DNA from: Zygnema cylindricum
Lineage: Eukaryota; Streptophyta; Zygnematophyceae; Zygnematales; Zygnemataceae
DNA length: 64,000 nucleotides
Assembly (NCBI GenBank): GCA_037447655.1
Contig: JBBHKE010000622.1
Location: forward strand, 25,266 to 89,265
Direction of reading: 5' to 3'
The position numbers were made by a program, and so were the translations under genes. Under the pieces are notes generated by a model. That model saw only the letters and a program-made list of their open reading frames with translations, was not told where the DNA came from and did not search any database. Shown one piece after another: positions 11,997 to 58,100 of the stretch; the stretch's first letter is position 1, and every line of letters begins with the position of its first letter.

Positions 11997-12079
11997 CTGT
12001 TCACAAAATTTGTCAATGGAAATGGAGAAAGAGTTAGACTTTTGATTATGCTTTGACTGTCAAACTCTTTCATATGAAT

Positions 12080-20160: not shown

Positions 20161-20169
20161 AAATCAAAC

Positions 20170-34396: not shown

Positions 34397-34560
34397 CCAT
34401 AGTTAAAAAGTAGGTGAAAGTAGGCCCATGTAATATGCCTATTGTATACAAAAAATACAATATGAACTTAAGACTCATATTGTATTCGGACCTATTCGCA
34501 CCAATTAAAACATTCGGACCAAAAATTGGACCAATTAAAACATTTAGACCAAAATAATTC
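34397..34560 (+). mobile_element. MITE-like TIR element, left-end fragment
   Basis: It starts CCATAGTTAAAAAGTAGGTG and runs through CATGTAATATGCCTATTGTA and the doubled ACCAATTAAAACATT motif, matching copies 2 and 3. The right terminal repeat is missing, so it is truncated. Confidence 0.75.
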
Positions 34561-34925
34561 ATGCTGACTGTGGGTTACAGGTCAAAGCGCTCATCCAAAG
34601 AGTGCCGCTGGCACTACCGTACGAGTCAAAACTCGCCACGTGTCACCCGCCACGTTGAGCTTTCATTTTTATCGATACGAAGTAAAGGGTTACAAATACT
34701 ATACGAGTTCAAACTTTTCAAATCCATTTCCGCCACATATGCAAGAAAACTTTCGCACGCTTTACCGACCATACCGTTTCCTACCGTACTATCCGCATCG
34801 CACAATTCACGCGAACGGATGTGGGCGATTAACGTCGTCGGCACATGGCGACTCCACACATCCATTTGAACATATTCTCACACGTGTGTTCACAATGAGC
34901 ACAACGACAATGGTCGGCTAAACCC
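34561..34925 (+). repeat. Dispersed repeat unit
   Basis: Begins near TGCTGACTGTGGGTTACAGG and continues through CATATGCAAGAAAACTTTCG, CCGTACTATCCGCATCGCAC and CATGGCGACTCC. It matches 40662-41030 in the second copy and, inverted, about 25290-25600. Open frames on both strands overlap each other and are not supported as genes. Confidence 0.65.
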
Positions 34926-36700
34926 GCCTTCATTTCCGTTACACTACACCGAGAATCGTTATTAGTGTCAAAATTTTAAAGTGTTGAAGAAAATATACCG
35001 TTATTGATGCTAATTAAGAATTAAAAAAAAAAAAGGTGTATTCTTATTTTGGCATTATGCTAATTTGGGAACAGCAAAAATGGAATATTTGCCGTACGAT
35101 TATAAACAGTAATATATGAATCCGTACAAAATATTAGAAATCGTACACCGTCGTGAAATTTCAATATCCGTACATGTCAATACTACACCGTGAATCGTAT
35201 TAGCGTGTAGAAATTATTAGTGTATATAATGAATTAGTGTCATTTACGCTAATTTGTGTATCAATACCATTTTCAAAAAAATATGTTTTATTGTAATTTA
35301 TCCATAACGCTGATTTGGGTATACAAGATCCGTCGTTGTAGCATATACGGTAAAATAGGTAGAAGTACAAAATTTGACAATCCATACGACATGGCGTCCT
35401 TCTACTGTAAAAATCCATAATTCTATTTTGGGTTTGCGAATATACAATCATTACACCGTGTATAATTATACAGTAAAATAGGTACGAGTAAAAACCGTCG
35501 AAATATACGGGTATGTGTACTTTCACTTAAGTTCATTCGTGACTCTAATAAGCGTTTTTTTCGCACGCGGTGAATATGATTACACTAAAATAGGTGCGAG
35601 GACAACATAGGATAAAACGTACATTGTCGCGTCATATAGTCGATTCTATGCTTCGGGGCTGTAAAACGCAATTATCTCATAAGGTTATGTAACCGTACAA
35701 CTATAATACGTTCAATCATTTCAGTTTGTTATTATGTGTAGAACGCAACTATAGCAACCAACATTCCATGTTTATGTTTCGTTTCACATAACTTACAGTG
35801 AACCCAGCGATTGATTTTAATATCGTTGTTGTACGCTGTGAGGACGACCGTTATATGACGTTAAATATGGACCCTTAACCTTAATAAGGTGCCTTGAGGC
35901 TTGCTTTATTAGAATTAATGCATTGTAATATTGGGACATAAGTGTATTAACGATACGTTTACTTAGATCAGACGTCGAACAAGCCTCTTATTAGTATCAC
36001 TGTTAATTCTAATTGAACGTAAAACGAAGAAAAACCACTTATTAGGATACATGTTAATTCTAATTGGCGGTAATACTCCGACGAAAGATGATCAGTCTCC
36101 GGTGGAAGATTATCATTGGTTGTTGCCAAAAACACGTGGCTTGTTTACTATCCACGCATTCCTAAAGTTGGTCATTTTTCGTACGTGACGTTAGAACAAC
36201 CGTTTTTCGGGGTTACGACGGCGCATTTTTTCCCATCATCTTTTTGCCGTATGCACTATAAGCTGGAGGTCTTTCCATGGCGCTGACAACATTTCATCGA
36301 CGACGTCAGTTTTGAAATATTTTGCCAAATCGAAACATTTTTAACGTAATCGCGCTTCTATTCCCGCGATTTTAAATTTTTAAAAATTGAAAGGCATAAT
36401 AAAGTTCAAAATTTGAATTTTTAACAAAATTTTTAAAATGGCAAATCCCTCCATTTTTACAGCGAAATTAACTTTCGGTTGCATCTAGTGTATTATATAA
36501 ATGTATATGTGATGATGAAGACGACACTATCACCACTTCTTGCTCATTTGCTTGGGTTACCATTTTCATCCTTGGCAGCAACTCTTATTTCTTATTTTTT
36601 AGGTGATATTAAGGTTTTGAAATTATGTGGACCCTTAATAGAATTTGGGGTGCCAACCCTGCCTATTATATCAACAATCCACACAACGCTCAATCTGAAC
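34925..36700. other. Unassigned AT-rich flank upstream of the transposase exon, copy 1
   Basis: Contains several ACACCGTGAATCGT(A)TTAG words and inverted GCTAATTTG forms, but no gene. The corresponding DNA in the second copy is 41030-42800. The 5' end of the pogo-like element should lie here, but I could not define a terminal repeat. Confidence 0.45.
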
Positions 36701-36707
36701 AAGATGA

Positions 36708-36996
36708 AGAAATGGAAAGGGTCGACGAGGAAATCGCATTTCCGACGACAAAGGGAGTGAGGCGGAAGTCGAAACCTCGGTTGACCTGGCGGCCATTGTG
36801 GAAGAGTTTTTTCCGTCCTCGCCCAATTCGAGAGGACGTGTTCCTCACAGGAAAGTTCAACATGTGTCGACTAAGGTAACACGGCTGCGAGTACAAAACT
36901 GGATGCTGAGGGATTGCGAAAAAAATGGGTCGAAAGAACTCATTCCAAGGACGTTGAGGAAGTTTCCCGAGCATTTTACCGGAGTCTACAATACAA
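36708..36996 (+). pseudogene. pogo-like transposase first coding exon, copy 1
   Basis: This is equivalent to 42809-43097. The plus frame reads VEEFFPSSPNSRGRV, then HRKVQHVSTKVTRL and RVQNWMLRDCEKNG, up to a donor ACAA/GTAAGC at 36997. No ATG opens this frame; a TGA precedes it, so an upstream exon or another start is needed. Downstream transposase exons are absent here because the copy ends at the scaffold gap. Confidence 0.5.
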
Positions 36997-37762
36997 GTAA
37001 GCCATTTTAAACATACCTCATCCCATTAATTAAATGGTTTCGTCGCATCCTCCCGGTTTTTTTATTATTTCCATTCACAATGCGTTGTTTTATTTTATTA
37101 TTGTTGTGCTTCTAAAGTGTTTGTACATTATTATGTTGGACCGCCGCCTTTCCTTCTCAATTTACATCCTAAGTTGTTATTAACTTGCCATTAGTGCGTG
37201 TTTTTTTATGTTGTCGGTTGGTATGCATTGTCTTGTTATATTTTGGTATTATTTTCATCGTGTCCTACGATTTCCTTGTGGGGACAACGTATTAGCGACG
37301 AAGGGTCTTTGTCGCGGTGTATGCGACGACATCGTGTCGTCGCTTCAATGATGGGTTCGACAAATTCATTACTGTATGAGGACGCCTCGTTTGGTCGAAA
37401 GTGCGAATGACCGACGACAGTGGTTCGTCGTTTCAACTAAACCACCGACGACATTAGTTCAGTCAATCCAACGTTGGTATACTCGAATGTAATTCGCGGG
37501 CGTCGACGTTGTTTCGTCAGTTCACTATTGGGAAACGCTAATATATTTGAACGCTCGACGACATTGTGTCGTCGCTTGGATGTCGGTTCTATAAGTTCGC
37601 AGGGCCAACGGTTAAATTTTCCGTCGGTGAATAGTTGTCTACGTTTTTACAGCAGCATGATCTAAGTAAAGGTCTGACCAAAAGTGTGTCTTTTAGGTTG
37701 TTTTTTTCTCCCTTAACTGTGTAATTACTTTGTTTCTCGGGAAGCAATTGTTTTTCTTCTCC

Positions 37763-38997
37763 ATGGAGGCCGGCTGACGACCATTCAAACGACTTCGCTT
37801 TGCCATTCAACGACGACATCGTCCACGACCAAATGAAACAGCGGTAGGGGGTCATATACTTAGAGGGAAGAACTTAGTGAGGGAAAGGGAGGCGCTTATA
37901 GAACAATTTAGGGAAGAAAGGGAGATAGCGGTAGGGGAGGATATTCAAAGAGAACGTGAGGAAAGGGCGGAACTGGTTAGGGAGAAGGAAATAGAGGGGG
38001 CGGAAGAATGGCAAGTTTGGATGAGGAGGCGGTTGGGCATATGATACCGGGATCGGAGGTGGTAGTTCGAGAGAGGGAGGCAATCGGAGGAGTATTAGGG
38101 AATAGGGTTGAACCGGAGGAGGGTGGTGGGGAAAGTGTTGGAATGGAGTTAGTTTTGACGGAGGGGGAGGAATCGGGTGCTGAAATAGAGGCGATGGAGG
38201 AATCGGAGGCGGTGGGGAGGGAAGGGACAGGGACGGAGAGGGTAGTAAGGAGAAGTGTGCCGGAAGGGGGGGTTCCGGATGAAGGGGTTGGAGCCGAGGA
38301 CGATGGTGTCCGCGAAGTAGAAGGGGGTAAGGAAGAAGACCAAGAATACAACCCCTCGGGAACCGCGTCGGACGAGCCTATAGAGGACGGGGAAGAGCCT
38401 ACGGAAGAGGGGGAAGTGCTGGAAGAAACTGAATCGTCGGACATTCCGGTGACGAAATAGGAGGACGATCCGACAACCTCGGAGGAGCAATCTTCGGAGA
38501 GCTTGGAAAGGCGCATGGAGGAAAAATATGAAGACGAAGACGAGGTCGTTGCTTTTCCTCCTTCGCCGAACCGCAAAAGAGCTATCGTGGCGGTACAACC
38601 ACCTCAAAATCCGGCCGACCATGATGTTCCCGTTCGAGAGGAAGAACCCGATTGGTTTTTTCCGCCTCCCGTCAGAGATGAGGCCATGGATGGCTTTCGA
38701 CCATCGGCGGCCCACTACATCCCGATCGAGGAGTGGCTGGACTATTGGCGTTATGGGGAGGCTCGGCCTCTCGTACGGAATTTGAGCCCCGTCCCGGAAA
38801 TTCAAGACATCCCTCCGGATGTCCCCGCCCACCCAACATGGTTGTACATCGCATCGTACAACCATGCTTCAAATTTCCCTTACATAATGCATTTTCAGTC
38901 TAATGATGAACGTTTTACATGGATTATACTTCAACCGATCGGATTCGAAATCGATGTGCCGGAATTAATGCGGCATTATCACCTTTGGGATCCACGG
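37763..38997 (+). pseudogene. Accessory acidic/WD-motif protein, copy 1 (broken, truncated by gap)
   Basis: Same gene as 43864-45393. ATG 37763 is followed four codons later by TGA (37775-37777), where copy 2 has CGA. A one-base loss near 38015 shifts frame relative to copy 2. From about 38020 to 38457 the acidic region (runs of Glu, Gly, Val) is open, ending at TAG 38458-38460, which is also present in copy 2. The second part from 38503 contains the REEEPDWFFPPP motif, the IPPDVPAHPTW motif and YHLWDPR, stopping at the N run. It retains CGA at 38068-38070 where copy 2 has TGA, so the two copies decayed independently. Confidence 0.6.
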
Positions 38998-39007
38998 NNN
39001 NNNNNNN
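38998..39007. other. Scaffold gap (10 N)
   Basis: Ten N characters interrupt the accessory gene of copy 1 just after the WDPR codons. The 114 bp after the gap (39008-39121) matches neither copy. Confidence 0.98.
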
Positions 39008-39121: not shown

Positions 39122-40497
39122 ATAAACTAGAGTCCAAACTAGAGTTCAAAGTGGTGTCCAAAATAGAGCCTTAACTAGGGTCCAAACTAGAGGTAAAACT
39201 AGAGAGTAGATTTGAATAAAAACAGAGGTCCACATTGGATCCTGAAAAGTCCTAACTTGAGTGTTAAATAGAGTCTAAACTGGAGTGTTAAATAGAGTCT
39301 AAACTGGAGTCCGAACTAGAGTCCATAATAGATTCCAAACTAGAGTCTAAAGTGGGGCGTCAACTAGATTCCAAGTTGGTGTCTAATTCAAATTCCAAAC
39401 GAGATTGTAAGTTAGACTCAAAACTATGCGAATCGCTATCAACGTTAAGAATTAATTAGAGTAAAAATATAATTATTGTTATTCGTTGTATTTTGTTTTC
39501 AAGGCATTTCGCTAAGGAAGATAACCTTTAAGTTATGCATTTATTTAATTTGGGTACATTGTTCCTATGGTGTAGCCGGTATAGCATGTATTCACATAGT
39601 TGATGTTTGTACAAACGAGAACAAGTTAGCGTGATTTTTCCATGTCTTTAACTATGAGAATCAAATCTGAATGTTATTTCTTGTTTCGGCACACTCACTT
39701 TTGGGTGTGGGCGCCTTTGTCTAACACTTTTTTAATTGTATGAAATAAAAAGCAACTTTAGTGCCACCACTATCTAAAAACTGTCGAAATTATATTTTTT
39801 TACGTGAATCTAAAAGCCTATATTAATGTAAAAAAACTATTAGAAGCCTATATTAATGTGAAAAAACTATTAGAGTTATTTCTTTATTTTAGGGTTGAGG
39901 GTCAAAATTTGGGGTAATCGAATTAGCGTTATTAACGTTGATAACGATTAACGGTGTAGAGTCCAAACCAGAATCGATATTACAGCTCAAACTGGAGCCC
40001 AAACTAAAGTCCAAACTAGGTTCGAAACTAGAGTCCCATCTAGAGTTCAACTGGAATCAAAATTAAAGCCCCAACTAGATTCGAAAATCGAGTCCACTCT
40101 ATAGTCTAAAATATTGTAAAATTAGAGTACAAACAAGAGTTCAAACTAGAGTACAAACTGAAGTCGAAAGTAGAGACCAAACTAGAGCACAACTTATATT
40201 CCGTTCTACATTTCAAACTAGAGTCCAAACTGGAGTCGAAGCCCGAGACTAAAAATGGGTCCAAACTAGATTCTAAATTGGACTCCAAAATTCCAAACTA
40301 GAGTCAGAAAAAAAAACCAAACTAGAATCCAAAATAGATTCAAATCTAGAGTTTATAATATATTCCAAACTAGAGTACAAACTAGAGTTCAAACAAAATT
40401 CCAAACTGGAGTCCAAACGGTCCAAGTTAGAGCCAAAATAGAGTCAAAATAAGAGTTCCAAATAGATTCCAAACAAGAGTCCAAACTAGAGTCCAAA
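39122..40497 (+). repeat. 12 bp minisatellite, downstream array
   Basis: CTAGAGTCCAAA-type units as in 32900-34396, again interrupted by the same non-repetitive insert (about 39410-39960). Confidence 0.85.
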
Positions 40498-40660
40498 CCA
40501 TAGTTAAAAAGTAGGTGAAAGTAGGCCCATGTAATATGCCTATTGTATGCAAAAAATACAATATGAACTTAAGACTCATATTGTATTCGGACCTATTCGG
40601 ACCAATTAAAACATTCGGACCAAAAATTGGACCAATTAAAACATTTAGACCAAAATAATT
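40498..40660 (+). mobile_element. MITE-like TIR element, left-end fragment (copy 2)
   Basis: Starts CCATAGTTAAAAAGTAGGTG inside the last minisatellite units, exactly as at 34397, and lacks the right end. Confidence 0.75.
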
Positions 40661-42800
40661 CGTGTTGACTGTGGGTTACAGGTCAAAGCGCTCATCCAAA
40701 GAGTGCCGATGGCACTGTCGTACGAGTCAAAACTTGCCACGTGTCACCCGCCACGTTGAGCTTTCATTTTTATCGATACGAAGTAAAGGGTTACAAATAC
40801 TATACGAGTTCAAACTTTTCAAATCCATTTCCGCCACATATGCAAAAAAACTTTCGCACGCTTTACCGACCATACTGTTTCCTACCGTACTATCCGCATC
40901 GCACAATTCACGCGAACGGATGTGGGCTATTGACGTCGTCGACACATGGCGACTCCACACATCCATTTGAACATATTCTCACAAGTGTGTTCACAATGAG
41001 CACAACGACAATGGTCGGCTACACCCGCCTTCATTTCCGTTACACTACACCGCGAATCGTTATTAGTGTCAAAATTTTAAAGTGTTGAAGAAAATATACC
41101 GTTATTGATGCTAATTAAGAATTAAAAAAAAAAAAAAAGAAGTATTCTAATTTTGGCACTATGCTAATTTGGGAACAGCAAAAATGGAATATTTGCCGTA
41201 CGATTATAAACAGTAATATATGAATCCGTACAAAATATTAGAAATCGTACACCGTCGTGAAATTTCAATATCCGTACATGTCAATACTACACCGTGAATC
41301 GTATTAGCGTATAGAAATTATTAGTGTATATAATGAATTAGTGTCATTTACGCTAATTTGTGTATCAATACCATTTTCAAAAAAATGTTTTATTGTAATT
41401 TCTCCATAACGCTGATTTGGGTATACAGGATCCGTCGTTGTAGCATATACGGTAAAATAGGTAGAAGTACAAAATTTGACAATCCATACGACATGGCGTC
41501 TTTCCACTGTAAAAATCCATAATTCTATTTTGGTTTGCGAATATACAATCATTACACCGTGTATAATTATACACTAAAATAGGTACGAGTAAAAACCGTC
41601 GAAATATACGGGTATGTGTACTTTCATTTAAGTTCATTCGTGACTCTAATAAGCGTTTGTTTCGCACGCGGTGAATATGATTACAGTAAAATAGGTGCGA
41701 GGACAACATAGGATAAAACGTACATTGTCGCGTCATATAGTCGATTCTATGCTTCGGGACTGTAAAACACAATTATCTCATAAGGTTATGTAACCGTACA
41801 ACTATAATACGTTCAATCATTTCAGTTTGTTATTGTGTGTAGAACGCAACTATAGCAACCAGCATTCCATGTTTATGTTTCGTTTCACATAACTTACAGT
41901 GAACCCAACGATTGATTTTAATATCGTTGTCGTACGCTGTGAGGACGACCGTTGTATGACGTTAAATATGGACCCTTAACCTTAATAAGGTGCCCAGAGG
42001 CTTGCTTTATTAGAATTAATGCATTGTAATATTGGGACATAAGTGTATTAACGATACGTTTACTTAGATCAGACGTCGAACAAGCCTCTTATTAGTATCA
42101 CTGTTAATTCTAATTGAACGTAAAACGAAGAAAAACCACTTATTAGGATACATGTTAATTCTAATTGGCGGTAATACTCCGACGAAAGATGATCAGTCTC
42201 CAGTGGAAGATTATCATTGGTTGTTGCCAAAAACACGTGGCTTGTTTACTATCCACGCATTCCTAAAGTTGGTCAGTTTTCGTACGTGACGTTAGAACAA
42301 CCGTTTTTCGGGGTTACGACGGCGCATTTTTTCCCATCATCTTTTTGCCGTACGCACTGTAAGCTGGAGGTCTTTCCATGGCGGTGACAACATTTCATCG
42401 ACGATGTCAGTTTTGAAATATTTTGCCAAATCGAAACATTTTTTACGTAATCCCGCTTCTATTCCCGCGTTTTTAAATTTTTAAAAATTGAAAGGCATAA
42501 TAAAGTTCAAAATTTGAATTTTTAACAAATTTTTTAAAATGGCAAATCCCTCCATTTTTACAGCGAAATTAACTTTCGGTTGCATCTCGTGTATTATATA
42601 AATGTATTTGTGATGATGAAGACGACACTATCACCACTTCTTCCTCATTTGCTTGGGTTACCATTTTCATCCTTTGCAGCAACTCTTATTTCTTATTTTT
42701 TAGGTGTTATTAAGGTTTTGAAATTATGTGGACCCTTAATAGATTTTGGGGTGCCAACCTTACCTATTATATCAACAATCCACACAACGCTCAATCTGAA
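40661..42800. other. Dispersed repeat and unassigned flank, copy 2
   Basis: 40661-41030 repeats 34561-34925. The rest is AT-rich DNA with ACACCGTGAATCGTATTAG-type words and no supported gene. A frame at 42580-42861 shows no domain. Confidence 0.5.
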
Positions 42801-43389
42801 CAAGATGAAGAAATGGAAAGGGTCGACGAGGAAATCGCATTTCCGACGACAAAGGGAGTGAGGCGGAAGTCGAAACCTCGGTTGACCCGGCGGCCATTGT
42901 GGAAGAGTTTTTTCCGTCCTCGCCCAATTCGAGAGGACGTGTTCCTCACAGGAAAGTTCAACATGTGTTGACTAAGGTAACACGGCTGCGAGTACAAAAC
43001 TGGATGCTGAGGGATTGCGAAAAAAACGGGTCCAAAGAACTCATTCCAAGGACGTTGAGGAAGTTTCCCGAGCATTTTACCAGAGTCTACAATACAAGTA
43101 AGCCATTTTAAACATACCTCATCCCATTTATTAAATGGTTTCATCGCATCCTCCTGGTTTTTTTATTATTTCCATTCACAATGTGTTGTTTTATTTTATT
43201 ATTGTTGTGCTTCTAAAGTGTTTGTACATTATTATGTTGGACCGCCGCCTTTCCTTCTCAATTTACATCCTAAGTTGTTATTACCTTGCCATTAGTGCGT
43301 GTTTTTTTATGTTGTCCGTTGGTATGCATTGTCTTGTTATATTTTGGTATTATTTTCATCGTGTCCTACGATTTCCTTGTGGGGACAAC

Positions 43390-43700
43390 GTATTAGCGAC
43401 GAAGGGTCTTTGTCGCGGTGTATGCGACGACATCGTGTCGTCGCTTCAATGATGGGTTCGACAAATTCATTACTGTATGAGGACGCCTCGTTTGGTCGAA
43501 AGTGCGAATGACCGACGACAGTGGTTCGTCGTTTCAACTAAACCACCGACGACATTAGTTCAGTCGATCCAACGTTGGTATACTCGAATGTAATTCGCGG
43601 GCGTCGACGTTGTTTCGTCAGTTCACTATTGGGAAACGCTAATATATTTGAACGCTCGACGACATTGTGTCGTCCCTTGGATGTCGGTTCTATAAGTTCG
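43390..43700. repeat. Cluster of short GACGA/TCGTC hairpins in the transposase intron
   Basis: Several 20-25 bp inverted repeats lie close together: GCGACGAAGGGTCTTTGTCGC (43395-43415 approx.), GCGACGACATCGTGTCGTCGC (43424-43444), GACGACAGTGGTTCGTCGT (about 43514), GTCGACGTTGTTTCGTC (about 43602) and CGACGACATTGTGTCGTC (about 43657). The arms are always GACGA-like with variable loops. The same cluster occurs at 37290-37600 in copy 1. Confidence 0.8.
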
Positions 43701-43863
43701 CAGGGCCAACGGTTAAATTTTCCGTCGGTGAATAGTTGTCTACGTTTTTACAGCAGCATGATCTAAGTAAAGGTCTGACCAAAAGTGTGTCTTTTAGGTT
43801 GTTTTTTTCTCCCTTAACTGTGTAATTACTTTGTTTCTCGGGAAGCAATTGTTTTTCTTCTCC

Positions 43864-45393
43864 ATGGAGGTCGGCCGACGACCATTCAAACGACTTCGCT
43901 TTGCCATTCAACGACGACATCGTCCACGACCAAATGAAACAGCGGTAGGGGGTCATATACCTAGAGGGAAGAACTTAGTGAGGGAAAGGGAGGCGGTTAT
44001 AGAACAATTTAGGGAAGAAAGGGAGATAGCGGTAGGGGAGGATATTGAAAGAGAACGTGAGGAAGGGGCGGAACTGGTCAGGGAGAAGGAAATAGAGGGG
44101 GCGGAAGAAAGGCAAAGTTTGGATGAGGAGGCGGTTGGGCATGAGATACCGGGAGCGGAGGTGGTAGTTTGAGAGAGGGAGGCAATCGGAGGAGTATTAG
44201 GGAATAGGGTTGAACCGGAGGAGGGTGGTGGGGAAAGTGTTGGAATGGAGTTAGTTTTGACGGAGGGCGAGGAATCGGGTGCCGAAATAGAGGCGATGGA
44301 GGAATCGGAGGCGGTGGGGAGGGAAGGGACGGGGACGGAGAGGGTAGTAAGGAGAAGTGTGCCGGAAGGGGGGGTTCCGTATGAAGGGGTTGGAGCCGAG
44401 GACGATGGTGTCCGCGAAGTAGAAGGGGGTAAGGAAGAAGACCAAGAATACAACCCCTCGGGAACTGCGTCGGACGAGCCTATAGAGGACGGGGAAGAGC
44501 CTACGGAAGAGGGGGAAGTGCTGGAAGAAACTGAATCGTCGGACATTCCGGTGACGAAATAGGAGGACGATCCGACAACCTCGGACGAGCAATCTTCGGA
44601 GAGCTTGGAAAGGCGCATGGAGGAAGAATATGAAGACGAAGACGAGGTCGTTGCTTTTCCTCCTTCGCCGAACCGCAAAAGAGCTATCGTGGCGGTACAA
44701 CCACCTCAAAATCCGGCCGACCATGATGTTCCCGTTCGAGAGGAAGAACCCGATTGGTTTTTTCCGCCTCCCGTCAGAGATGAGGCCATGGATGGCTTTC
44801 GACCATCGGCGGCCCACTACATCCCGGTCGAGGAGTGGCCGGACTATTGGCGTTATGGGGAGGCTCGGCCTCTCGTACGGAATTTGAACCCCGTCCCGGA
44901 AATTCTAGACATCCCTCCGGATGTCCCCGCCCACCCAACATGGTTGTACATCGCATCGTACAACCATGCTTCAAATTTCCCTTACATAATGCATTTTCAG
45001 TCTAATGATGAACGTTTTACATGGATTATACTTCAACCGATCGGATTCGAAATCGATGTGCCGGAATTAATGCGGCATTATCACCTTTGGGATCCACGGT
45101 TATTCACCATTCTACGTCGTGCAACTCGTACTCCGGGGCTAAACGAATTTTTAGAGGCTCGAAGTGCGGTTTTACATCGCTTCCGAAATGTGCAAGTGAG
45201 GCGTACGTACCTTTGGGAAATTCCGAGGATCCTACATGTCGATGAGCCCCCTCCACCGCCGCAATTGGAGCAATTGAGGAATGAAGTTAAAAATCTCAAT
45301 CGGCGGGTCGAGGCTCAAGAATTAGCGATGAGAGAGGTTCGTCGCTTAATTAATAATCTCACGCGAGAGCTTGCAGGGATTAGGCGTCGCTGA
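43864..45393 (+). pseudogene. Accessory protein gene with acidic N-terminus, novel WD-motif domain and coiled coil
   Basis: One plus frame runs from ATG 43864 to TGA at 45393, interrupted by TGA (44170-44172) and TAG (44560-44562). A basic start (RRPFKRLRFAIQRRHR) precedes a long Glu-rich region with DQEYNPSG. The part after the TAG (44605 on) has EEYEDEDE, REEEPDWFFPPP, IPPDVPAHPTW, GFEIDVPEL, HYHLWDPRLFTILRR and TPGLNEFLEAR, then Pro-rich PPPPPQ and a C-terminal heptad-like coil (LEQLRNEVKNLNRRVEAQ). The gene lies between transposase exons, same strand. The TAG is shared with copy 1; the TGA is CGA there. The central motifs match the ORF at 51351-52595. I recognise no known family. A role in element regulation or targeting is only a guess. 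Confidence 0.65.
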
Positions 45394-45904
45394 TGCGAGA
45401 TGATGAAGGTCAATTTCATGGCCTTCATTCGACAGAGAGGTATCCCGATTTCTCCCTCACCCTACATTGCATGTCCCAATGTTTTGTTTGTTTTTTATTT
45501 TTTCCATACGTGTATAAATTTAATATATCTCTTCCATTTTCTAGCCTTGTGAATGTAAATTAATTTTTAACTCTTACCTTTGGATTTGCTGATGTCGGCA
45601 TTGTGTTTGATCGTTCTCGTTCCCGGTTTAACGACGAGACAGGGTTGTCGCTGAACTGTGGAATTTTCATTGGTGGTCGGCAAACGACTACGCATCAACG
45701 TCGTTTACGAAAAAAAATGTCAATTCGTTGATTTAACGACGACTTTCTGTCGTCCCTAAATCAACGAGAGTAGCACTTCGTCGCGAAATATTCCCGCATC
45801 TCTTTCTTGTCACTTTAATTTGCTATATTGCTTACCATTGTGACTAATGAAGTGACACATATAATGAAAATCATTTAATATTTTACATTGTGTATTGTGT
45901 ACAG
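45394..45904. other. Intron-like spacer with GACGA/TCGTC hairpins
   Basis: No coding. Hairpin words TAACGACGAGACAGGGTTGTCGC (about 45629), AACGACGACTTTCTGTCGT (about 45741) and CAACGAGAGTAGCACTTCGT (about 45765) repeat the pattern seen at 43390-43700. The spacer ends at the acceptor TGTGTACAG at 45904. Confidence 0.65.
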
Positions 45905-47677
45905 AGTATCAAAAGGCCAAGCGATGGTGGATAAAGAGGAGGAATACGCTTGACGGAATACGAGAGACAACTCGGACATTCTCTTGTTCTAGTTTCAGGA
46001 GGAGATCGGTGGCGGTTACCAATGCTTTGCCGGGACGAGGAAGGAAGGAAGCCGCTTGGGTGACAGTTATACATGAAGAGTTACTTTTCGATTTTGAACG
46101 TTTTAAGAAAGCGGGTATGAAGATGTCCACCACAATTCTCGGGGACATTGCTAGCGACATTATAAGAGAAAGGAGGAAAGAATACGGACCAGAATGGTTC
46201 AACAAAGACGGGTCGGAAATACACCCGGTAATAAATAAAAGGTGGGTGCAAAGGTGTCAAGAGAAGCACAACATCGTTGTGCGGGCACAAAAGGGTAAAC
46301 TACAATGCTCACCCGAGAAAGAGGAATACATTGAGCGTACCGTGGCCTTCCACATGGGCGTGCTGAAGCGAGGGTTTGAATCCGGTGAGTCACTATACAT
46401 TATAAAAATATTATAATGATGGTTCCTTTTTTTGAAATATGTTTTGTTTTGGTTGTATTCCCTACTTAACAACATATACTAAAAAAGTATGAAATTTGTT
46501 TGTTTTGGTTTGCCGTTTCATGTATACTAGGAATTTTCAACGAAGACCTAGTGGAAAACATGGATGAAACACACATGATCGTCAACACCGACAATGGAAA
46601 GACTTTGGGATTTCGAGGCGATGATGTGGTGAAATACGCCAACGTCGCGGGAGGAGGTGAATCCATAACTCTCATGGTGCGAATAACTGGTGGGGTGAAC
46701 GTTCGTATCGAAAACTCGATGATAATTTTTGCAAATCGTGCGAGGAGTTACCCGATATACGGTTTACCGGACACCGTCCCGGGTGAGTTTTTTCTCCCAA
46801 ATAAAATGTTTTCATTTTTATTTTGATGTATGTTTGTCTTTGATGAAGGTCTCTCTATTTGTCTCTATTTCATTTTTTGTGTCTAATCTTATATGTATAT
46901 CTCTCTACTTCTCCCTCTCATACCTCCTCCCTCTCTCTCCCACTACAAATTTACGTTATTTTCATTCATTAACTCTCTAACTTCTCTTATCTCAAACAAT
47001 GACTCCTATGACAAGCTACCTATGGTACACGTAGATTACTTTCCCCATAAGGCAAATTTACGCAAGCAAAATAAAAGTTAATTTTGTCTTCTTTTTGTTG
47101 ATTTTTTATCTTTTCAGGCGTTTGTTACCGGACCGGTTCAAAGGGTTGGAACAACAAAACAATGTTCCCACAGTGGTTCGAAGAGACAAGGTCATATCAA
47201 GGGGAATGGGAAGGACGACAAAAAATCATATTTTTGGATAACTGTGGAGGTCATAATACGTCCGATGAGTTCGAGCGAGTCCTAGAGGCCAAAAACACTA
47301 TTTTACACTATTTTCCACCTCATGCTACGCATCTTGTTCAACAAGCGGACTCTTTTGTCATCTCTAAAATCAAGGACGTGTGGAGCCGTATATGGGACAG
47401 CTAGAAGGCGAAAGGAATTGAAACCAGGCAATGGGGTAAACCTTCAAGCCGTGGATGGTCAGAAAAATTGGTGGGACCCGGTAAAGCATTTTTTCTAAAA
47501 TTGGCACGGGATTCTACCCGAGAGGTTAACGCAATGCGAGACAAAAACAAGATGAGTTATGCGCGAAAAAGAATGATTCAATGTGGTCTGTCTTTACGTG
47601 ACGGACATAGGGAAGAAGACATGCTCACACATCAATTGCAAGACATAATCACCAAGTATCCCAACCATTTCGAATGA

Positions 47678-48151
47678 GAGGTTGTGGAACCTCATTGCCC
47701 AAGGGCAAGAGAATTCCTCCGAAATATTGAAGATGCCGACAGTCAGCAAGATAGCATTTTCAGCGAGGGAGGGATGAGCGGCAACGAGTTTTAAAGATAT
47801 AATATAACTACGTATTCATTTTTTTTGTTTTAAATGTCAGTTTGAGAATGGTAGTTTAATTATAGCGGGAGTAGTAGTCATACTCCTGGCAGATTAATGT
47901 AGACTGTCCATGAAGTTTAGTATTAATTCACTTCTTGGGAAAAAAACAAATTTTATATGTGTGTATGGTTTTATTATGGGATAATACAATTTTGGTATTT
48001 CTGAAGTTTACATGTTTGGCTTAATGTGGAATTGGATGTATTTATAAAAATTATTATGTATTTACCTTGAGATGATGTTAATGTGGTGTTAAATATTTGA
48101 GTGTAGCATGGAATTATATATATTGCTGCATTGTACAACCTAAACTAATCA
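47678..48151. other. 3' flank of the transposase gene
   Basis: After the stop at 47677 the same frame continues with recognisable but unneeded text for about 30 codons. Then AT-rich DNA follows with no gene. It is presumably the 3' untranslated region and inner end of the transposon. Confidence 0.5.
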
Positions 48152-48180
48152 GCGACGAGTATACTTCGTCGCTGATCCAT
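48152..48180. repeat. Perfect 11 bp-arm hairpin at the element junction
   Basis: ATCAGCGACGA and TCGTCGCTGAT are exact inverted repeats around GTATACT. It lies between the last DNA-transposon sequence and the first recognisable gypsy RT codons, about 30 bp further on. Confidence 0.85.
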
Positions 48181-48211
48181 CATCCATCGAGGAAGTTCAT
48201 AATTTTTACAT

Positions 48212-51042
48212 AGTACCGAGCGCTTAACAAGTTAACGGTCAAGAATGCGTACCCTTTACCGAGAATAGACGAATTGCTAGACCGACTTTGAGGTGCTAAA
48301 TATTTCTCAAAGATAGATCTGCGGAGCGGTTATCACCAGATTAGAATTGCCGAGGAGGATGTGGAAAAGATAGCATTTAGAACTCAGTATGGCCATTTCC
48401 AGTTTCGGGTAATGCCGTTCGGGTTAACCAATGCACCGGCGACTTTTATGCATCTGATGAACTCCATCTTTCGATCATATCTGGGTGCGTTTGTAATCGT
48501 CTTTCTAGACGACATCTTGGTGTATAGCGGAACGCTGGAGGATCACATGAAGCACTTACGAACGGTCCTACAAGTCCTTCGGGAAAATAGGTTGTACGCA
48601 AAGAGGAGCAAATGTGACTTATTGAAAGAGAAAATTGATTTTTTGGGCCATGTGGTGAGCCGGGACGGAATCGCAGTGGATCCGAACAAAACAAGGGCAG
48701 TGAAAGAGTGGCCGCAACCGATGAACATTACGGAATTACGGAACTTTCTGGGATTATGCTTCTACTATCGACGTTTTGTTGAAGGTTTCGCCAAAATCGC
48801 TACACCACTCACGGAATTACTTAAGAATGACACGCCCTACGAGTGGAAATCGGCGCAAGGGGCAGCTTTTAACACGCTAAAGGAATGGTTGGTTACCGCC
48901 CCTGTGTTAGCTGTTCCCGACCCGGATTTACCTTGGACGATAATTACAGACGCCAGCGATACAGCTATTTGAGCAATCCTTATGCATGATCAAGGAAAAG
49001 GCGTACAACCCATTACCTACGACAGTCGAAAACTAAAGGCAGCGGAGCTTAACTGGGCCACCCATGAAAAGGAGACAATTGCAATAATCAATGCGCTAGA
49101 GGTTTGGAAATGTTACGTTCAAGGGAAGCGGATCACATGTATCACGGATCACCACGCCCTGCAGTACCTACAAACACAGCCAAAATTGTCCAAGAAACAA
49201 GTGCGCTGGATGACGTTTCTCTAGACCTTCGGGCCGGAACTTGTCATTGAATATAAGCCGGGCAAGACAACCCAGCAGATGTAATGTCGAGAAGACCCGG
49301 AGTCGCTGCTACAGTGGCGGAGCACCGATCGCAAACATCACAAGAAGTCGATGTTAGCTCTGTGAAAGAGAACACCGCAGCGGCGGCCACAGCGTAAGAT
49401 TCGAAACTCAGCGCAATCACCAGTACGGTGCAAGTGGACGAGCAATGGCTAAGTATAATCAAGGCAGCATATGACGAGGACGATACATTAAAAGAACTGA
49501 TAAAACGGAAGGTATTGGTTCGGACCGCCAAATGTATGTGGCGATACCGACCAAGTCAAACAACGAGACTTTACGTACCGACAAACCAGGAGCTATGTCG
49601 TTCGATACTGAAATTAAGTCATGATGAACCACTCTGTGGACGCTTCGACCGCGATTGAACAACCGCACGTGTAGCTGAGGCGTATTATTGGCCAAACATG
49701 ACTTGCAACATTGCGGAGTATGTCCAAACGTGTGACTCTTGTAACAGAAACAAAGCGGAATCGGGTCACCAGGGTCTGTTACAACCACTTCCGATACCAT
49801 CTATTATTTGGGAAGCGATTTCGATGGACTTCATCGTTGCTCTCCCGTTATCCAGGGAAGGTTATGACTCTATTTTCGTCGTCGTGGATTGCTTGACAAT
49901 AATGGCTCATTTCTTACCCACGACAACCACCGCCACAACGCGAGATGTAGCAGACTTATTCTTTTGGGAGATATTCCGCCATCACGGACTCCCAAAGAGG
50001 ATCGTCAGCGACCAAGATCGGAAATTTGTGAGTCACTTTTGGAGAGGTCTGTATGCGCTATGTGGAACGCAGCTGGCGATGTCCACAGCTTACCACCCTC
50101 AAACGGATGGTCAAACTGAAACGGTGAATTGGACTTTGAAGGAGGCGTTACGGGCTTATGTTTCGGTGCACCAAACGGATTGGGTAAACCATCTAATAGC
50201 GATTGAGGTGGCGTACAACAGTGCGGCGCACTTGTCCACGAATGCTACGCCATTCTCCCTCAACGGACGACAGCCCACTCTTCCCCAAAACTTATTCGTC
50301 GTGGACTGCCCTACACCGACAGCTATGGATTTTGCCACAACGTTGCAAGGGAACCAAGAAAACGCGGCGAAAGGCGCTCCAGCTGGCAAAGGATTGTCAA
50401 AAGTCGCAAGCTGACTCTCAGCGGAAGGAAACCGTTTTTCACGTGGGTGATAGGGTTCGCCTTAATATGGCAAACCTCTCCTTACCGGGCGCCCTCTCTA
50501 AGAAATTGGCACCGAAATTCACGCGCATATTCACAATTCTGTCACGTGTGGGAGAGGTGGTTTATAAGATGGATATTCCGACGGAGTGGCATATCCACAA
50601 TGTCTTCCTTGTTTCCCTACTTAAACCATTCATAGACCCTGATTCGATGTTTCCTAATCGACGGCAAAATACTCCTTTGCCCCCCGTTCACGGTACCTCG
50701 GACGAGTATGAGGTGGAGGATATCTTTCAGTCACGCCGCTCTCGGAATTCCAACTCCAGACAGTATCTAGTGCGTTGGAAGGGCTACGGCGTTGAGGACG
50801 ACTCTTGGGTGAACAAGGGGGATCTGCATTCTCGTGAGTTGTTGCGTTGGTTTCAGAAGAGTGAGGACACTCAACTTCACCGGAGGGGCAATCGGAGCGG
50901 CCGCGGTAAAGGAACGAATCGCAGTGTCGCAACCTTTGCAATTATATTGGGGACGCCGCGAAGAAACGCAACGACGATGTTACCTCACTTCGGCGATACA
51001 GCGGCGCAGTCACCGCAGCGCAGCATGGATACCGTACCATGA
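48212..51042 (+). pseudogene. Ty3/gypsy pol: RT, RNase H, integrase, chromodomain
   Basis: The product would copy element RNA and insert the cDNA. Domains in order: RT with [15 protein letters not shown] and active site FLDDILVYS (48502-48528); RNase H beginning at IITDASDTA (about 48940) through TCITDHHALQYL; integrase with an HHCC finger (CDSCNRNK; one His replaced in CGRFDRD) and core MDF (about 49824), SDQDRKF (about 50008) and HPQTDGQTE (about 50096); a C-terminal chromodomain (YEVEDIFQ, YLVRWKGYGVEDDSWV, 50701-50850). Stops at 48287, 48970-48972, 49222 and about 49657, frame breaks around 49265-49290 and a frameshift near 50350-50400 destroy it. Chromodomains in this clade direct insertion into heterochromatin. 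Confidence 0.9.
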
Positions 51043-51350
51043 GAGGAACGCAGCAACACCGCTGCGCTGATAGGAAAGCGCAATGGCGCAATTGTGTTTA
51101 ACCACATTGGTGACAAGGAACCCTTGGTTTCGCCACAGCATCGCAGTTTTAAAAATGTTGGAGGCTGCGATACCCTCGCACACTACGACGCGTCACAGAG
51201 TCCAAATGTGAAACCCTCAACCCTCTGTAACAAAGCCGCCAACCGCCTTTGCGCCCTGTTTAGTCTAGGCAGCTTAGAGAGTGCTTCACTCTGCACAGCC
51301 AGCTTACCCTTCCTTATGCACTACCAGAATTATCCGACGCCACAACATCC

Positions 51351-52595
51351 ATGGCATCGTTGTCTTCTCCACCGCCAAAAAGACGGAGACTGGTACGAGT
51401 AGGGCGAGGTGATGTACCCCGCCCGCATAGATTGTTAGAGGCAGCAGAGGCCATGGTAGAGGTAGGTAGGAGGAGGGAGGAGGTGGTAGTTGTTGAACCA
51501 AAGGAGACAGCTAGTAGCGGGGCAGGGCCAGCGGAGACCAGCAGAAAAAAGGGGTCAGAAAATTCACAAGACCCCGAGTACAACCCACTCCAAGAAGGGG
51601 ATCAGGAGGATGAGGAAGACCATGTGATTTCGGATGCGGAGGAACCGGAACGGGAACCGACACCCCCGCAAATTGAGGAGCGTGCCTCCGACCTGGAGGT
51701 GATGAGGGACCCTAATAACGAGAGCACCGCGGACGAGCAGCCCTTGGAAAGCTCGGAGAAGAAGGCGGAAGCACAATACCCTAGCGGAGACAAGGTATTT
51801 CTCCTCGGAAGGGAAAGAGGGGACACAAACGGGGAAAGTGAGCGGGAAGAAGAAACCCCCGATTATCTCTTTCCATCTCCTATCGACACTCGGCAACCGG
51901 ACCCTACTTTCAGCTTCGCCAAGCGCCTGTACAAGGACCCTTCGGAGTGGCGTGCAACCTGGCGCACAGGAAAACGTGGGGACCCCATCTATATCCCCGC
52001 CGTCGTGCCGTCACACCCAGCCTGGAATTTATTGAGAACGAAAGACCTGGGGAACAACCATAAGGGTTACGTACAACTAAACCCTCATGCCCTGCCATTT
52101 GTGGAAGTAGTCGAAGAGCACTATCGGTACAGGGTGCATGTTCTCGGGTTACCCCGTCGTTACCACCCGTGGGATATTCGTCTGCATGGCATCATCTCTC
52201 GGGTGGAGGTTACACCCGAGGTACGGGCACTCAAGATGGCCCGGAAGAACGCTCTGCAGCGGGCCCGAGCCGCTAGGAAACACATCTCCTTCAAATTAAG
52301 GAAAGTACCGTAGTGGGAACCGGCAGAGGGGGTAGCATATAGGGCACAGCAAGCCGAGGAACCTGAAGCTGCCCAAGCCTCGGCACCCGAAGAATCTGCA
52401 CCGGCAGCCATTCCAGTGCAACCTGCGGCAGGAGCAGAGGCACCGGAGGAAGGGGAGGATCGGGTTCGGGAGCAAATCACTCGGAGACGTTTGGCAGCAG
52501 CGGATCACTATATTACGCTGCTGGAGACTCGTTGTGAGCAGCTCCAACACCAACTTGACACCCTACGACAGGAATTCGAGGAGTACTGTGAGTAG
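51351..52595 (+). CDS. Extra ORF after the chromodomain: acidic protein sharing motifs with the DNA-transposon accessory gene
   Basis: ATG 51351 opens 320 codons to TAG 52311-52313; the same frame then runs 93 codons more to TAG 52593-52595, so the element ancestor probably made about 414 residues. Features in order: basic PPPKRRRL start; acidic stretch with DPEYNP and EDEEDHVISDAEEPE; EEETPDYLFPSP; YIPAVVPSHPAW; EEHYRYRVHVLGLPRRYH, running into PWDIRLHGIISR and TPEVRALK; an Ala/Pro-rich linker; and a C-terminal coil (HYITLLETRCEQLQHQL). The order and key residues match 43864-45393. It lies on the same strand as pol, 0.3 kb downstream, an unusual place for an added gene in a chromovirus. No known enzyme motif is seen; function is unknown. 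Confidence 0.65.
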
Positions 52596-52676
52596 ACATA
52601 CGGCATGCTCCGGAAATTAAAGTTTCCCTCAGGAAACAAAGTTCAGCGGGACGATGAATCCTTAGTGGGACGCACT

Positions 52677-53200
52677 GTAACAGGGTTACAAGGTTGGGAA
52701 CTTAGTGGCTAGAAACTCGGCTGCAATAGTTGCGATTGCAGAGCAGTGCAGCTGCGATTCTAGATTAGCGCAACATAGGAGCATAGCAACTTGGTAGAAT
52801 AACGTAGCGCAGCATTGCAACGCAGCGTAGCAGTATAGCAACGCCGCAGAATGTAGATTTTACCGTATAGTTCTAGAAAAATATTGTGGATAGATCTCGG
52901 TTGACCGCGAAGGTCCACATGTACATTTGTACACTATTGGGTTGACTAGCAGTTAGTTAGTTTATATAGTGAGACAGACGTAGTACGAGACTGACTCTTT
53001 GAGTAGACCCTCGCAGCGTGTGTTGAATATTGTAATCCTCTCTTGAGTAATAAAGCGCCATCTTGTCTGTCACAGCTGTGTGCACCTGTTGTTGCTACGG
53101 GAGGATCCTTGGAGCTTTCCGTTGTGCATTTCTGGTGTATTGTGGTGCCTATAATTCCTGCCTCTTTTACACTTTGCTGAGATCTCGGTTCAAGCTTTGG
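52677..53200 (+). repeat. Probable 3' LTR of the gypsy element (right limit uncertain)
   Basis: It starts TGTAACAGGGTTACA, a short palindrome at the expected TG terminus, 82 bp after the extra ORF. It contains several GCAGC/GCAGA-rich short repeats (52735-52850) and AATAAA at about 53047, as expected of an R/U5 region. No second LTR remains to confirm it, and the CA end is not defined. Confidence 0.45.
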
Positions 53201-54659: not shown

Positions 54660-55125
54660 GTCAAACGCTTATCGCATGTTTTCTTGTTTTCTCATGTTAG
54701 TATACAAGAATCTATAGCTTTTCAAATATTATCCAACTATTTAAGATAAATATTTTTATTGTGTATGTTTCTTAATCCAAGTGTAATTTCAACGCAACAC
54801 TACGCTTAATCAAAAACAAGTACATCGCAAAATACGTTGGTCATCAAGTTTGAGAGAGGGAGAGGAAGAGGAAGATGGAGAGGAAGAGGGAGAGGGAGAG
54901 GAAGAGGGAGCGGGAGAGGGAGAGGGAAGAGGGAGGGAGAGAGAGAGAGTGAGAGAGACACACAGAAAGGAATAATGGATATAGTACGGGGAGGGTCGAG
55001 TGTGTGTCCATAACATTGATCTTCTCTCCCAACCATCACCACCCTACCCCGCCCCCCCACCCCTATTTATCCTTGGGGAATTTAACGCCCCCCATCTCAC
55101 CCCCCCCTCCCTCCACCCGCCTGAT
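54660..55125 (-). repeat. Dispersed repeat, arm 2 of the inverted pair
   Basis: Reverse complement of 8640-9230: TACGTTGGTCATCAAGTTTG, an (AG)n/(GAGGGA)n block, TTGATCTTCTCTCCCAACCA-like sequence, CCCTATTTATCCTTGGGGAA and CGCCCCCCATCTCACCCC follow in the expected order. It abuts the 71 bp satellite, suggesting that the satellite grew out of the purine part of this repeat. Confidence 0.8.
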
Positions 55126-58100
55126 TTGGGGAAGAGGGAGAGGGAAAGTAGGGGGAAAGGGAGGATTTTTGGGAGAGAGGGAGGGAAAGGGCAGATTTGG
55201 GGAAAAAGGAGAGGGAAAGGAGGGGGAAAGGAAGGATTCTTGGGAGAGGGGGATGGAAAGGGCAGATTTGGTGAAGAGGGAGAGGGAAGGTAGGGGGAAA
55301 AGGAGGATTTTTGGGAGAGATAGAGGGAGAGGGCAGATTTGGGGAAGAAGGAGAGGGGTAGTAGGGGGGAAAGGGAGGAATTTTGGGAGAGGGTGAGGGA
55401 AAGGGCAGATATGGGGAAGAGGAAGAGGGAAAGAAGGGGGAAAAGGGAGGATTTTTGGGAGAGGGGGAGGGAAAGGGCAGATTTGGGGAAGAGGGAGGGG
55501 GAAAGTGGGGAAAGGGAGGATTTTTGGGAGAGAGGGAGGGAAAGGGCAGATTTGGGAAGAGGGAGAGTGAAAGAAGGGAAAAGGAAAGATTTTTGGAAGA
55601 GAGGAAGGGAAAGAGCAGATTTGAGGAAGAGGGAGAGGGAAAGTAGGGGCAATGGGAGGATTTTTGGGAGAGAGGGAGGGAGAGGGCAGATTTGGGGAAG
55701 AAGGGGAGGGAAAGTAGGGGGAAAGGGAGGATTTTGGGAGAGGGGGAGGGAAAGAGCAAATTTGGGGAAGAGGGAGAGGGAAAGTAGGGGGAAAGGGAGG
55801 ATTTTTGGGAGAGAGGGTGGGAAAGGGCAGATTTGGGGAAGGAGAGGGAAAAGAGGGGGAAAGGGAGGAAGTTTGAGAGAGAGGGAGGAAAGGGGCAGAT
55901 TTGGGGAAGAAGGAGAGGGAACGTAGGGGAAAGGGAGGATTTTTGGGATAGGGTGAGGGAAAGGACAGATATGGGGCAGAGGGATAGGGAAAGAAGGGGA
56001 AAAGGGAGGATTTTTGGGAGAGGTGGAGGGAAAGGGCAGATTTGGGGAAGAGGGAGAGGGAAAGTAGGGGGAAAGGGATGATTTTTGGGAGAGGGGGATG
56101 GAAAGGGTAGATTTGGGGAAGAGGGAGAGGGAAAGTGGGGTGAAAGGGAGGATTTTTGGGAGAGGGGGAGGGAAAGGGCAGATTTGGGGAAGAGGGAGAG
56201 GGATTGGAGGGAGAAAGGGAAGATTTTTTGGGAAAGAGGGTGGGGAAAGGGCAGATTTGGGAAAGAAAGAGAGGGAAAGTAGGGAGAAGGGAGGATTTTT
56301 TGGGAGAGGGAGGGAAAGGGCATATTTGGGGAAGAAGGAGAGGGAAAGTAGGGAGAAAGGAAGGATTCTTCGGAGAGGGGGATGAAAAGGGCAGACTTGG
56401 GGAAGAGGAGAGGGAAAGTAGGGGGAAAGGGAGGATATTTGGGAGAGAGGGAGGGATAGGGCAGATTTGGGGAAGATGCAGAGGGAAATGAGGGGAAAGG
56501 TAGGATTTTTGGGAGAGAGGGAGGGTAAGGTCAGATTTGTGGAAGAGGGAGAGGGAAAGTAGGGGGAAAGGGGGATTTTTGGAGAGAGGGAAGGATAGGG
56601 CAGATTTGGGGAAGAAGGAGAGGGAAAGGAGGGGAAAGGGAGGATTTTTGGGAGAGAGGGAGGGAAAGGGCAGATTTAGGGAAGAGGAAGAGGGAAAGTA
56701 GGAGGAAAGGGAGGATTTTGGGTGAAGAGGGAGGAAGAGGGCAGATTTCAGGAAGAGGGCGAGGGAAATGATGGGGAAAGGGAGGATTTTTGGGAGAGGA
56801 TGAAGGAACGGACAGATATGGGGAAGAGGGAGAGGGAAAGAAGGGGGAAAGGGAGGATTTTTGGGAGAGAGGGAGGAAAAGGGCAGATTCGAGAAAGAAG
56901 GAGAGGGGAAGTACGGGGAAAGGGAGGATTTTTGGGAGAGGGAAAGGGAAAGTAGGGGGAAAGGGCGGATTTTGGGAGAGAGGGAAGGATAGGGCAGATT
57001 TGGGGAAGAAGGAGAGGGAAAGGAGGGGAAAGGATAGATTTTTGGGAGACAGGAAGGGAGAGGGCAGATTTGGGGAATACGGAGAGGGAAAGTAGGGGGA
57101 AAGGGAGGATTTTTGGAAGAGAGGGTGGGGAAAGGGCCAGATTTGGGGAAGAAGGAGAGGGAAAGGAGGGGGAAAGGGAGGATTTTTGAGTGAGTGGGAG
57201 GAAAAGGGCAGATTTGGGAAAGGAGAGGGAAAGTACGGGGAAAGGTAGGATTTTTGGGAGAGATGGAGGTAGAGGGCAGATTTGGGGGAGAAGGAGATGG
57301 AAAGTAGGGGAAAGGGAGGATTTTTGGGATAGGGTGAGGGAAAGGCAGATATGGGGAATAGGGAGATGGGAAAGAAGGGGAAAAGGGAGGATTTTGGGAG
57401 GGGGGGAGGGAAAGGGCAGATTTGGGGAAGAAGGAGAGGGAAAGTACGGCGAAAGGGAGGAGTTTTGGGAGAGGGGGGATGGAAAGGGCAGATTTGGGGA
57501 AGAGTGAGAGGGAAAGTAGGGGGAAAGGGATGATTTTTGGGAGAGATGGAGGGAGAGGGAAGATTTGGGGAAGAAGGAGAGGGAAAGTTGGGGGGAAAGG
57601 AAGGATTTTTGGGAGTGGGGGAGGGAAAGGGCAGATTTGGGGAAGAGGGAGAGGGATAGGAGGGAGAAAGGAAAGATTTTTTGGAAAGAGGGAGGGAAAG
57701 GGCAGATTTGGGGAAGAAGGAGAGGGAAAGTAAGGAGAAAGGGAGGATTTTTAGGAGAGGGGAATGGAAAGGGCAGATTTGGGGAAGAGGGAGAGGGAAA
57801 GTAGGGGGAAAGGGAGGATTTTTGGAAGAGGGGTAGGGAAAGGGCAGATTTGGGGAAGAGGGAGAGGGATAGGAGGGGGAAATGGAGGATTTTTTGGGAG
57901 AGAGGGAGGGAAAGGGCAGATTTGGGGAAGAAGGAGAGGGAAAGTAAGGAGAAAGGAAGGATTCTTGGAAGAGGGGGATGAAAAGGGCAGACTTGGGGAA
58001 GAGGGAGAGGAAACTTAGGGGGAAAGGGAGAGTTTTTGGGAGAGATGGAGGGAGAGGGCAGATTTGGGGAAGAAGGAGAGGGAAAGTAAGGGGAAAGGGA

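Follow-up and report, generated by a model that had tools for sequence, protein, structure and literature searches.

In a stretch of 64,000 nucleotides from Zygnema cylindricum (contig JBBHKE010000622.1; hereafter the window), two mobile elements of unrelated type, a pogo-like DNA transposon of the Tc1/mariner superfamily and a Ty3/gypsy chromovirus, carry accessory open reading frames (ORFs), here termed ORF1 and ORF2, respectively. We conclude that ORF1 and ORF2 are homologous, and that they almost certainly represent one protein family without earlier description that has these two element types as its carriers. The window copies of the two proteins align with 27% identity over 205 residues (BLASTP, E 1e-16), which confirms the common order and rough spacing of motifs that a sequence-only reading of this DNA had reported at these positions. 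That reading had also taken 43864-45393 to be an ORF; the protein region is indeed present, but it is not one ORF, being interrupted in frame by TGA at 44170 and TAG at 44560. Both window copies are in fact broken, and in ORF2 the tail lies behind a stop because of the TAG at 52311. Open copies of each were found elsewhere in the same genome, which was searched as an assembly of 352.8 Mb in 2689 contigs.

These open copies give stronger matches. Two ORF1 copies, L010 and L028, were each compared with the ORF2 of a near-intact chromovirus, L041, and both pairs gave E 3e-28. A profile-profile comparison of nine ORF1 with four ORF2 sequences matched at 99.8% (E 3e-29) over 241 columns. Three alignments between ORF1 and ORF2 cores scored 216-243, as against means of 36-37 and maxima of 73, 60 and 70 for shuffled sequences (500 shuffles each); that is, the observed scores lie 24-33 standard deviations above the shuffles. 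Positions that are invariant across a joint alignment of 11 sequences include E91-W92, W96-R97, H124-P125, H174, W176, R179-L180 and T190-P191 (numbering of the first row).

The carrier of ORF1 was assigned from its transposase and its ends. The transposase is encoded in four pieces, the last of which matches the DDE_1 endonuclease family PF03184 with E 2.4e-12 in L010 and 4e-11 in L021, both above the curated cut-off. For a putative N-terminal helix-turn-helix of the CENP-B/Tc5 type, the matches fell short of the cut-off (HTH_Tnp_Tc5, E 0.028; HTH_Tnp_Tc3_1, E 0.04). Exon 1 is followed by the donor GTAAG in L010, L012 and L021 and by GTAAT in L016, and AG precedes exon 2, in phase 1, in L010, L012 and L021. 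Since exon 1 lies upstream of ORF1 and exon 2 after it, the predicted gene model places ORF1 inside intron 1 of the transposase gene, on the same strand. Twenty ORF1 loci of 10 kb each were fetched for element structure, and a 24-bp left repeat of the type TACACCG(T/C)(G/C)AATCG(T/C)TATTAGCGT was found in 17 of them as well as in the window. L021 is a complete copy of 9.4 kb with identical 24-bp inverted repeats and TA at both ends. It is the only copy in which both ends were seen, as no right end was found in L010 or L016, the two other copies extended. Combining two queries, at least 239 places in the genome carry ORF1, and among 150 listed transposase matches, ORF1 is located upstream, on the same strand and within 10 kb in 85 (within 4 kb in 81).

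The window holds a second, partial pogo copy, and the surrounding sequence is itself repeated: 33025-38997 and 39124-45099 form a direct duplication of 6 kb with 97.9% identity, the first copy of which stops at a gap of 10 N at 38998-39007. This may be either a tandem duplication or an assembly artefact. Arrays of a degenerate 12-bp unit (CAAACTAGAGTC) are located upstream of both pogo copies, at 32904-34397 and 39124-40498.

The carrier of ORF2 is best seen in L041, which has gag and pol in the order of a Ty3/gypsy element, the reverse transcriptase before the integrase, a chromodomain behind the integrase, and two long terminal repeats (LTRs) of 470 and 471 bp that are 98.5% identical. Its gag and pol share one frame, with a single TAA between them (reverse complement 3342-3344). 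An open frame of 1800 residues then spans pol, the chromodomain (starting at residue 1161) and ORF2 (starting at residue 1378), and closes ahead of the 3' LTR. The primer-binding site is TGGTATCAGAGCA, which we take to resemble that of plant elements; no matching target duplication was seen at the ends of L041. In another copy, L045, one of 20 listed chromodomain matches with equal score, pol and ORF2 keep this order and share one frame, with two or more stops separating them; in the window copy their frames differ. ORF2 was listed at 125 or more places in the genome, and in 53 of 150 listed chromodomain matches it lies 307-377 bp downstream of the chromodomain. Downstream of the gypsy 3' LTR in L045, at 2904-3500, a piece with a zinc knuckle that resembles a copia polyprotein was recognised by eye.

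In the window itself the two elements abut: the pogo copy breaks off at about 48213, and the gypsy copy begins at 48214, inside the reverse transcriptase. Both are thus truncated, as would be expected if ORF2 were no more than a pogo remnant that happens to adjoin a gypsy element here. We consider the probability of such an artefact to be close to nil, and ruled it out on the near-fixed distance of ORF2 from the chromodomain in the 53 listed places, on its position before the 3' LTR in L041, and on the fact that the gypsy sequences occupy one side of a tree branch. The contact is a local rearrangement and not a fusion of element types. No ORF1 place among the 239 has a listed ORF2 or chromodomain within 2 kb, and a single one has either within 5 kb. 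The genome copies belong to two separate element types, with ORF1 enclosed by the terminal inverted repeats of a DDE_1 transposon and ORF2 placed after the chromodomain and ahead of the 3' LTR of a gypsy element, rather than to a single retroelement family scattered beside transposase exons.

The tree comprises 25 sequences (22 of them different) and has no outgroup. A single branch with support of 100/100 separates its 5 gypsy rows from its 20 pogo rows, a split that fits either one transfer, in either direction, or two uptakes from a common source. Together, the profile match, the genome copies and this split support the earlier proposal that one gene family was exchanged between class I and class II elements, or that a host gene was taken up twice. 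If the latter occurred, the pogo and gypsy lineages would have acquired members of a host gene family independently, and their likeness would reflect the host gene. A long branch separates the groups (1.75 changes per column in total), leaving room for an unsampled source, and the plant mobile domain, a precedent considered below, also has host-gene members (PMC5418596). No host copy was found among the best places listed, but a diverged host gene would escape such a listing. We regard independent uptake as a substantial possibility, though not the probable history.

Both proteins open with a basic segment, followed by a long acidic stretch, a core in which conserved Trp, Pro and His are abundant, and a tail. 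The ratio of nonsynonymous to synonymous substitution rates (dN/dS) in the ORF1 core is 0.09 for L010/L016, 0.14 for L010/L012, 0.16 for L020/L021 and 0.14 for L021/L028. In the ORF2 core it is 0.06-0.08 for three pairs with L041, at a near-saturated dS of 1.7-2.0. As judged from these ratios, purifying selection acts on the cores of distantly related copies in both element types. Six ORF1 places are 99-100% identical and open, and copies that are nearly identical or still open suggest that both elements were active recently.

The pogo elements contain, in addition, a dense array of a short motif. AGCGACGA occurs 8-20 times in each of nine loci (eight cut at the left repeat, one a whole 10-kb locus) versus 0.10-0.23 expected from an order-1 Markov model, and five times in the truncated element of the window. 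Most copies are part of a palindrome, AGCGACGA-N7-TCGTCGCT; over 117 sites, every second-arm base is the most frequent one at its position (59-86%), and exact half-sites form 20 head-to-head pairs spaced exactly 15 bp apart. With up to 3 mismatches in 16 tolerated, the scan found 187 palindromes on the element side of 16 left-repeat loci (122,483 bp, any right flank included), none in the left flanks of the same loci (37,517 bp), and none in 14 gypsy loci (60,515 bp, that of the window included). In the genome, 956 places match the palindrome exactly, versus 2 for the reversed pattern. Within the elements, the palindromes are concentrated upstream of ORF1, in the interval from ORF1 to exon 2, and downstream of the transposase. 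With up to 3 mismatches again allowed, 3 of the 43 palindromes in three pogo elements fall in reading frames, which make up 37-46% of the length (frame borders being approximate), and seven of the eight in the window element lie outside reading frames, the one at 45324 being inside ORF1.

Some occurrences of the motif fall outside recognised pogo copies. The first 30 kb of the window contain two copies of AGCGACGA. Four palindromes of the pogo type, the only ones in the first 33 kb, are located at 18859-20016, outside any recognised pogo copy and near a direct repeat of 78% identity (18883-19085 / 19984-20192); this site is perhaps a derivative without transposase. Among the exact palindromes listed, one spacer (AGTAGTT / AACTACT) recurs in eight contigs, and these may perhaps constitute a separate repeat family that spread the motif.

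Since the protein would perform a task shared by a DNA transposon and an LTR retrotransposon, its role is likely to be nuclear, either in escape from silencing or with chromatin as the target. Whether ORF1 and ORF2 encode a chromatin-level accessory factor in the nucleus, serving anti-silencing or targeting, is in our judgement evenly balanced; among the functions considered it ranks highest, and anti-silencing and tethering would be the two forms it could take. Such a protein would act at the level of chromatin or DNA, might pair through a putative C-terminal coiled coil, and would use the Trp/Pro/His-rich core as a binding module and the basic start as a nuclear-localisation-like signal. The task needed by both modes of replication would most likely be to keep element DNA out of silencing, or to steer the transposase or the integrase towards chromatin. 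For the pogo elements, the likeliest address would be the dense palindromes outside the reading frames; in the chromovirus, which lacks them, the domain could serve beside the chromodomain as a chromatin adaptor. By analogy with known systems, the palindromes could be bound by the ORF1 protein rather than by the transposase, which we consider somewhat doubtful. The most specific form of the proposal is that of an anti-silencing or chromatin-opening factor of a new family, which reads the pogo palindromes and which passed once between class II and class I elements, being placed after the integrase chromodomain and given a new target in the latter. As a whole, this reading is rather improbable.

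Several observations weigh against an anti-silencing or chromatin-level factor that recognises the palindromes. The transposase is at least as good a candidate for binding them as ORF1. Isolated AGCGACGA half-sites are not confined to the pogo elements, as one is present in a flank (1 in 2.5 kb) and another in L041. Among the 150 listed transposase matches, 65 have no listed ORF1 upstream, where it is lacking or merely unlisted. Both the coiled-coil tail and the nuclear-localisation-like start are readings by eye, the former joined by weak matches to coiled-coil families (best E 1.7e-4). Higher core dN/dS was obtained for close or degenerate ORF1 pairs (0.70 for L010/L015, 0.61 for L016/window, 0.33 for L024/L025) and for one ORF2 pair (0.35 for L037/window), and two further ORF1 pairs were saturated. 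In 13 LTR sequences of the chromovirus (two being the pair of one element, and ten including about 100 bases upstream of the LTR), the commonest 7-mer was never above the shuffle maximum. Because the gypsy loci lack the palindrome over 60.5 kb and no LTR 7-mer is in excess, a DNA target shared by ORF1 and ORF2 is unsupported, and we reject it for now.

A different function that would account for both carriers is that of a tethering or integration-site factor, which binds a host chromatin protein and thereby recruits the integrase (fused to it) or, in trans, the transposase to a favoured niche, with silencing not involved. Chromodomains are reported to direct integration in other elements, and ORF2 is located behind a chromodomain and fused in frame with pol in L041; moreover, the sequence favours anti-silencing no more than it does tethering. 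In the pogo elements, however, ORF1 is a separate ORF, and a permanent fusion of pol with ORF2 seems not to be needed because of the stops between them in L045. Tethering on its own is unlikely in our assessment, albeit a serious candidate.

TnpA of En/Spm (CACTA) is an accessory protein encoded by an element whose ends contain repeated motifs; ORF1 could similarly be a second DNA-binding subunit of the transposition machinery that binds such motifs and helps to pair the ends. ORF1 is like TnpA in its accessory role and in the repeated motifs, and differs in its superfamily, a comparison made by description only. The clustering of the palindromes around ORF1 and the transposase is consistent with such a subunit, and a paired coiled-coil protein would suit a palindrome. 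A retrotransposon, however, has no such ends to pair and yet keeps the domain under selection, and the transposase could itself be the palindrome binder. We judge a second subunit to be distinctly improbable.

In line with the sequence-only reading, which could not place the domain in any known family, no convincing match to a family or a solved structure was found. PDB sequence profiles gave three matches, none better than E 0.5, and none of nine ORF1 and four ORF2 members matched the plant mobile domain in Pfam at E 0.1 or better. Protein searches with whole ORF1, the ORF1 core, and the chromodomain together with ORF2 returned no relative at the E-value limits used; they are weak evidence about eukaryotes because the built-in chromodomain control was missed as well. 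Peptide patterns were matched by 81 stretches of viral contigs and by 60 of prokaryote genome contigs, with no relative among either.

That accessory genes rarely travel across transposon classes, as had been claimed, holds in that few such proteins are known, but there is a published precedent in the plant mobile domain (PMC5418596). PMD-A is found in Gypsy elements and PMD-C in MULE fusions (PMC5418596), and the host genes MAIN and MAIL1, of the PMD-C type, act in silencing (PMC5418596, PMC7156037, PMC9289625). As with ORF1 and ORF2, an accessory domain is thus common to Ty3/gypsy and class II elements, sometimes fused to the transposase (PMC5418596). The present case differs in that the class II carrier is pogo-like and not a MULE, the class I carrier is a chromovirus, and no host gene was found. 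In VANDAL21, noncoding parts are dense in a nine-base motif to which VANC21 binds, and VANC proteins cause loss of methylation (PMC5735166). ORF1 resembles VANC of VANDAL, a MULE, as an accessory ORF of a DNA transposon with a short motif dense in noncoding parts (PMC5735166). It differs, in a comparison by description only, in that the pogo motif is a palindrome with a 7-bp spacer rather than an array in one orientation, and in that the protein is also found in a retrotransposon. Among plant Ty3/gypsy elements with extra ORFs, orchid Gypsy elements likewise carry an additional protein, an m6A demethylase-like domain (PMC9289625), but this belongs to a known enzyme family, unlike ORF2, which has no known family and is also found in a DNA transposon. 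Lastly, C48 (Ulp1) peptidases occur in two groups of Cryptons, for which domain shuffling has been proposed (PMC3212892); here too an accessory domain may have been exchanged between mobile elements, but it is a known protease, and tyrosine-recombinase transposons are its carriers in either group (PMC3212892).

The kind of sharing is thus already known; the domain, its carriers and its position in an intron are apparently new. A literature search, whose coverage excluded most subscription papers and repeat databases, found no description of such a domain, carrier pair or intron position among the titles and abstract openings listed. Few accessory proteins are known to serve both element classes, the plant mobile domain being the example found. 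A second, unrelated module common to a pogo-like element and a chromovirus would, if confirmed, mean that transfer of such modules between classes has happened on more than one occasion, and would draw attention to a hurdle that elements of either class have to overcome, be it nuclear survival, silencing or targeting. Were the anti-silencing reading also true, one counter-defence module would serve cut-and-paste and copy-and-paste elements of the same genome.

Features of the window, with positions counted from its first nucleotide
Feature	Position	Strand	Basis or remarks
Second, partial pogo copy	35184..38997	+	interrupted by 10-N assembly gap; ORF1 from ~37981; self-blastn 97.9%, terminal repeat at 35184, ORFs
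Pogo-like (Tc1/mariner superfamily) copy, 3'-truncated	41288..48213	+	blastn to genome copies, terminal repeat scan
Left terminal inverted repeat of this pogo copy	41288-41310		terminal repeat scan
Transposase exon 1 (approximate)	42738..43096	+	tblastn with L010 exon peptide
Eight palindromes AGCGACGA-N7-TCGTCGCT in this pogo copy	43395..48173	.	first bases 43395, 43423, 43511, 43655, 45324, 45630, 45735, 48151
ORF1	43864..45393	+	accessory protein, predicted inside transposase intron 1; TGA 44170, TAG 44560
ORF1 core; coiled-coil-like tail	~44740-45246; ~45259-45390	+	preceded by basic start and acidic stretch
Transposase exon 2	45907..46389	+	tblastn, 92.5% to L010 peptide
Transposase exon 3, motif MDETH	46530..46784	+	tblastn
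Transposase exon 4, DDE_1 endonuclease, motif DNCGGH	47117..47791	+	tblastn; PF03184 on L010 copy
Ty3/gypsy chromovirus copy without 5' LTR, gag and start of pol	48214..53171	+	aligns to L041 from within reverse transcriptase to 3' LTR
Reverse transcriptase piece	48292..48972	+	PF00078, E 1.5e-30
Integrase piece	49659..50414	+	PF17921, E 2.9e-9; PF00665, E 3.3e-7, 30.9 bits, just under cut-off 32.6
Chromodomain	50701..50859	+	PF00385, E 3.1e-9; tblastn
ORF2	51351..52595	+	ORF1 homologue behind chromodomain; core ~51846-52310; TAG 52311
3' LTR (TGTAACAG ... TTTTACA)	52676..53171	+	aligned with L041 LTR pair and 3' end of ten other copies

In the window as a whole, Rfam gave nothing at the gathering score. 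Elsewhere, an ORF on the reverse strand at 11447-12130 has weak EGF-like matches (best E 0.0079, below the cut-off). The region 55123-64000 is occupied by a long polypurine minisatellite with units of 71 bp and 143 bp, and the GC skew over the last 8 kb of the window is 0.92.

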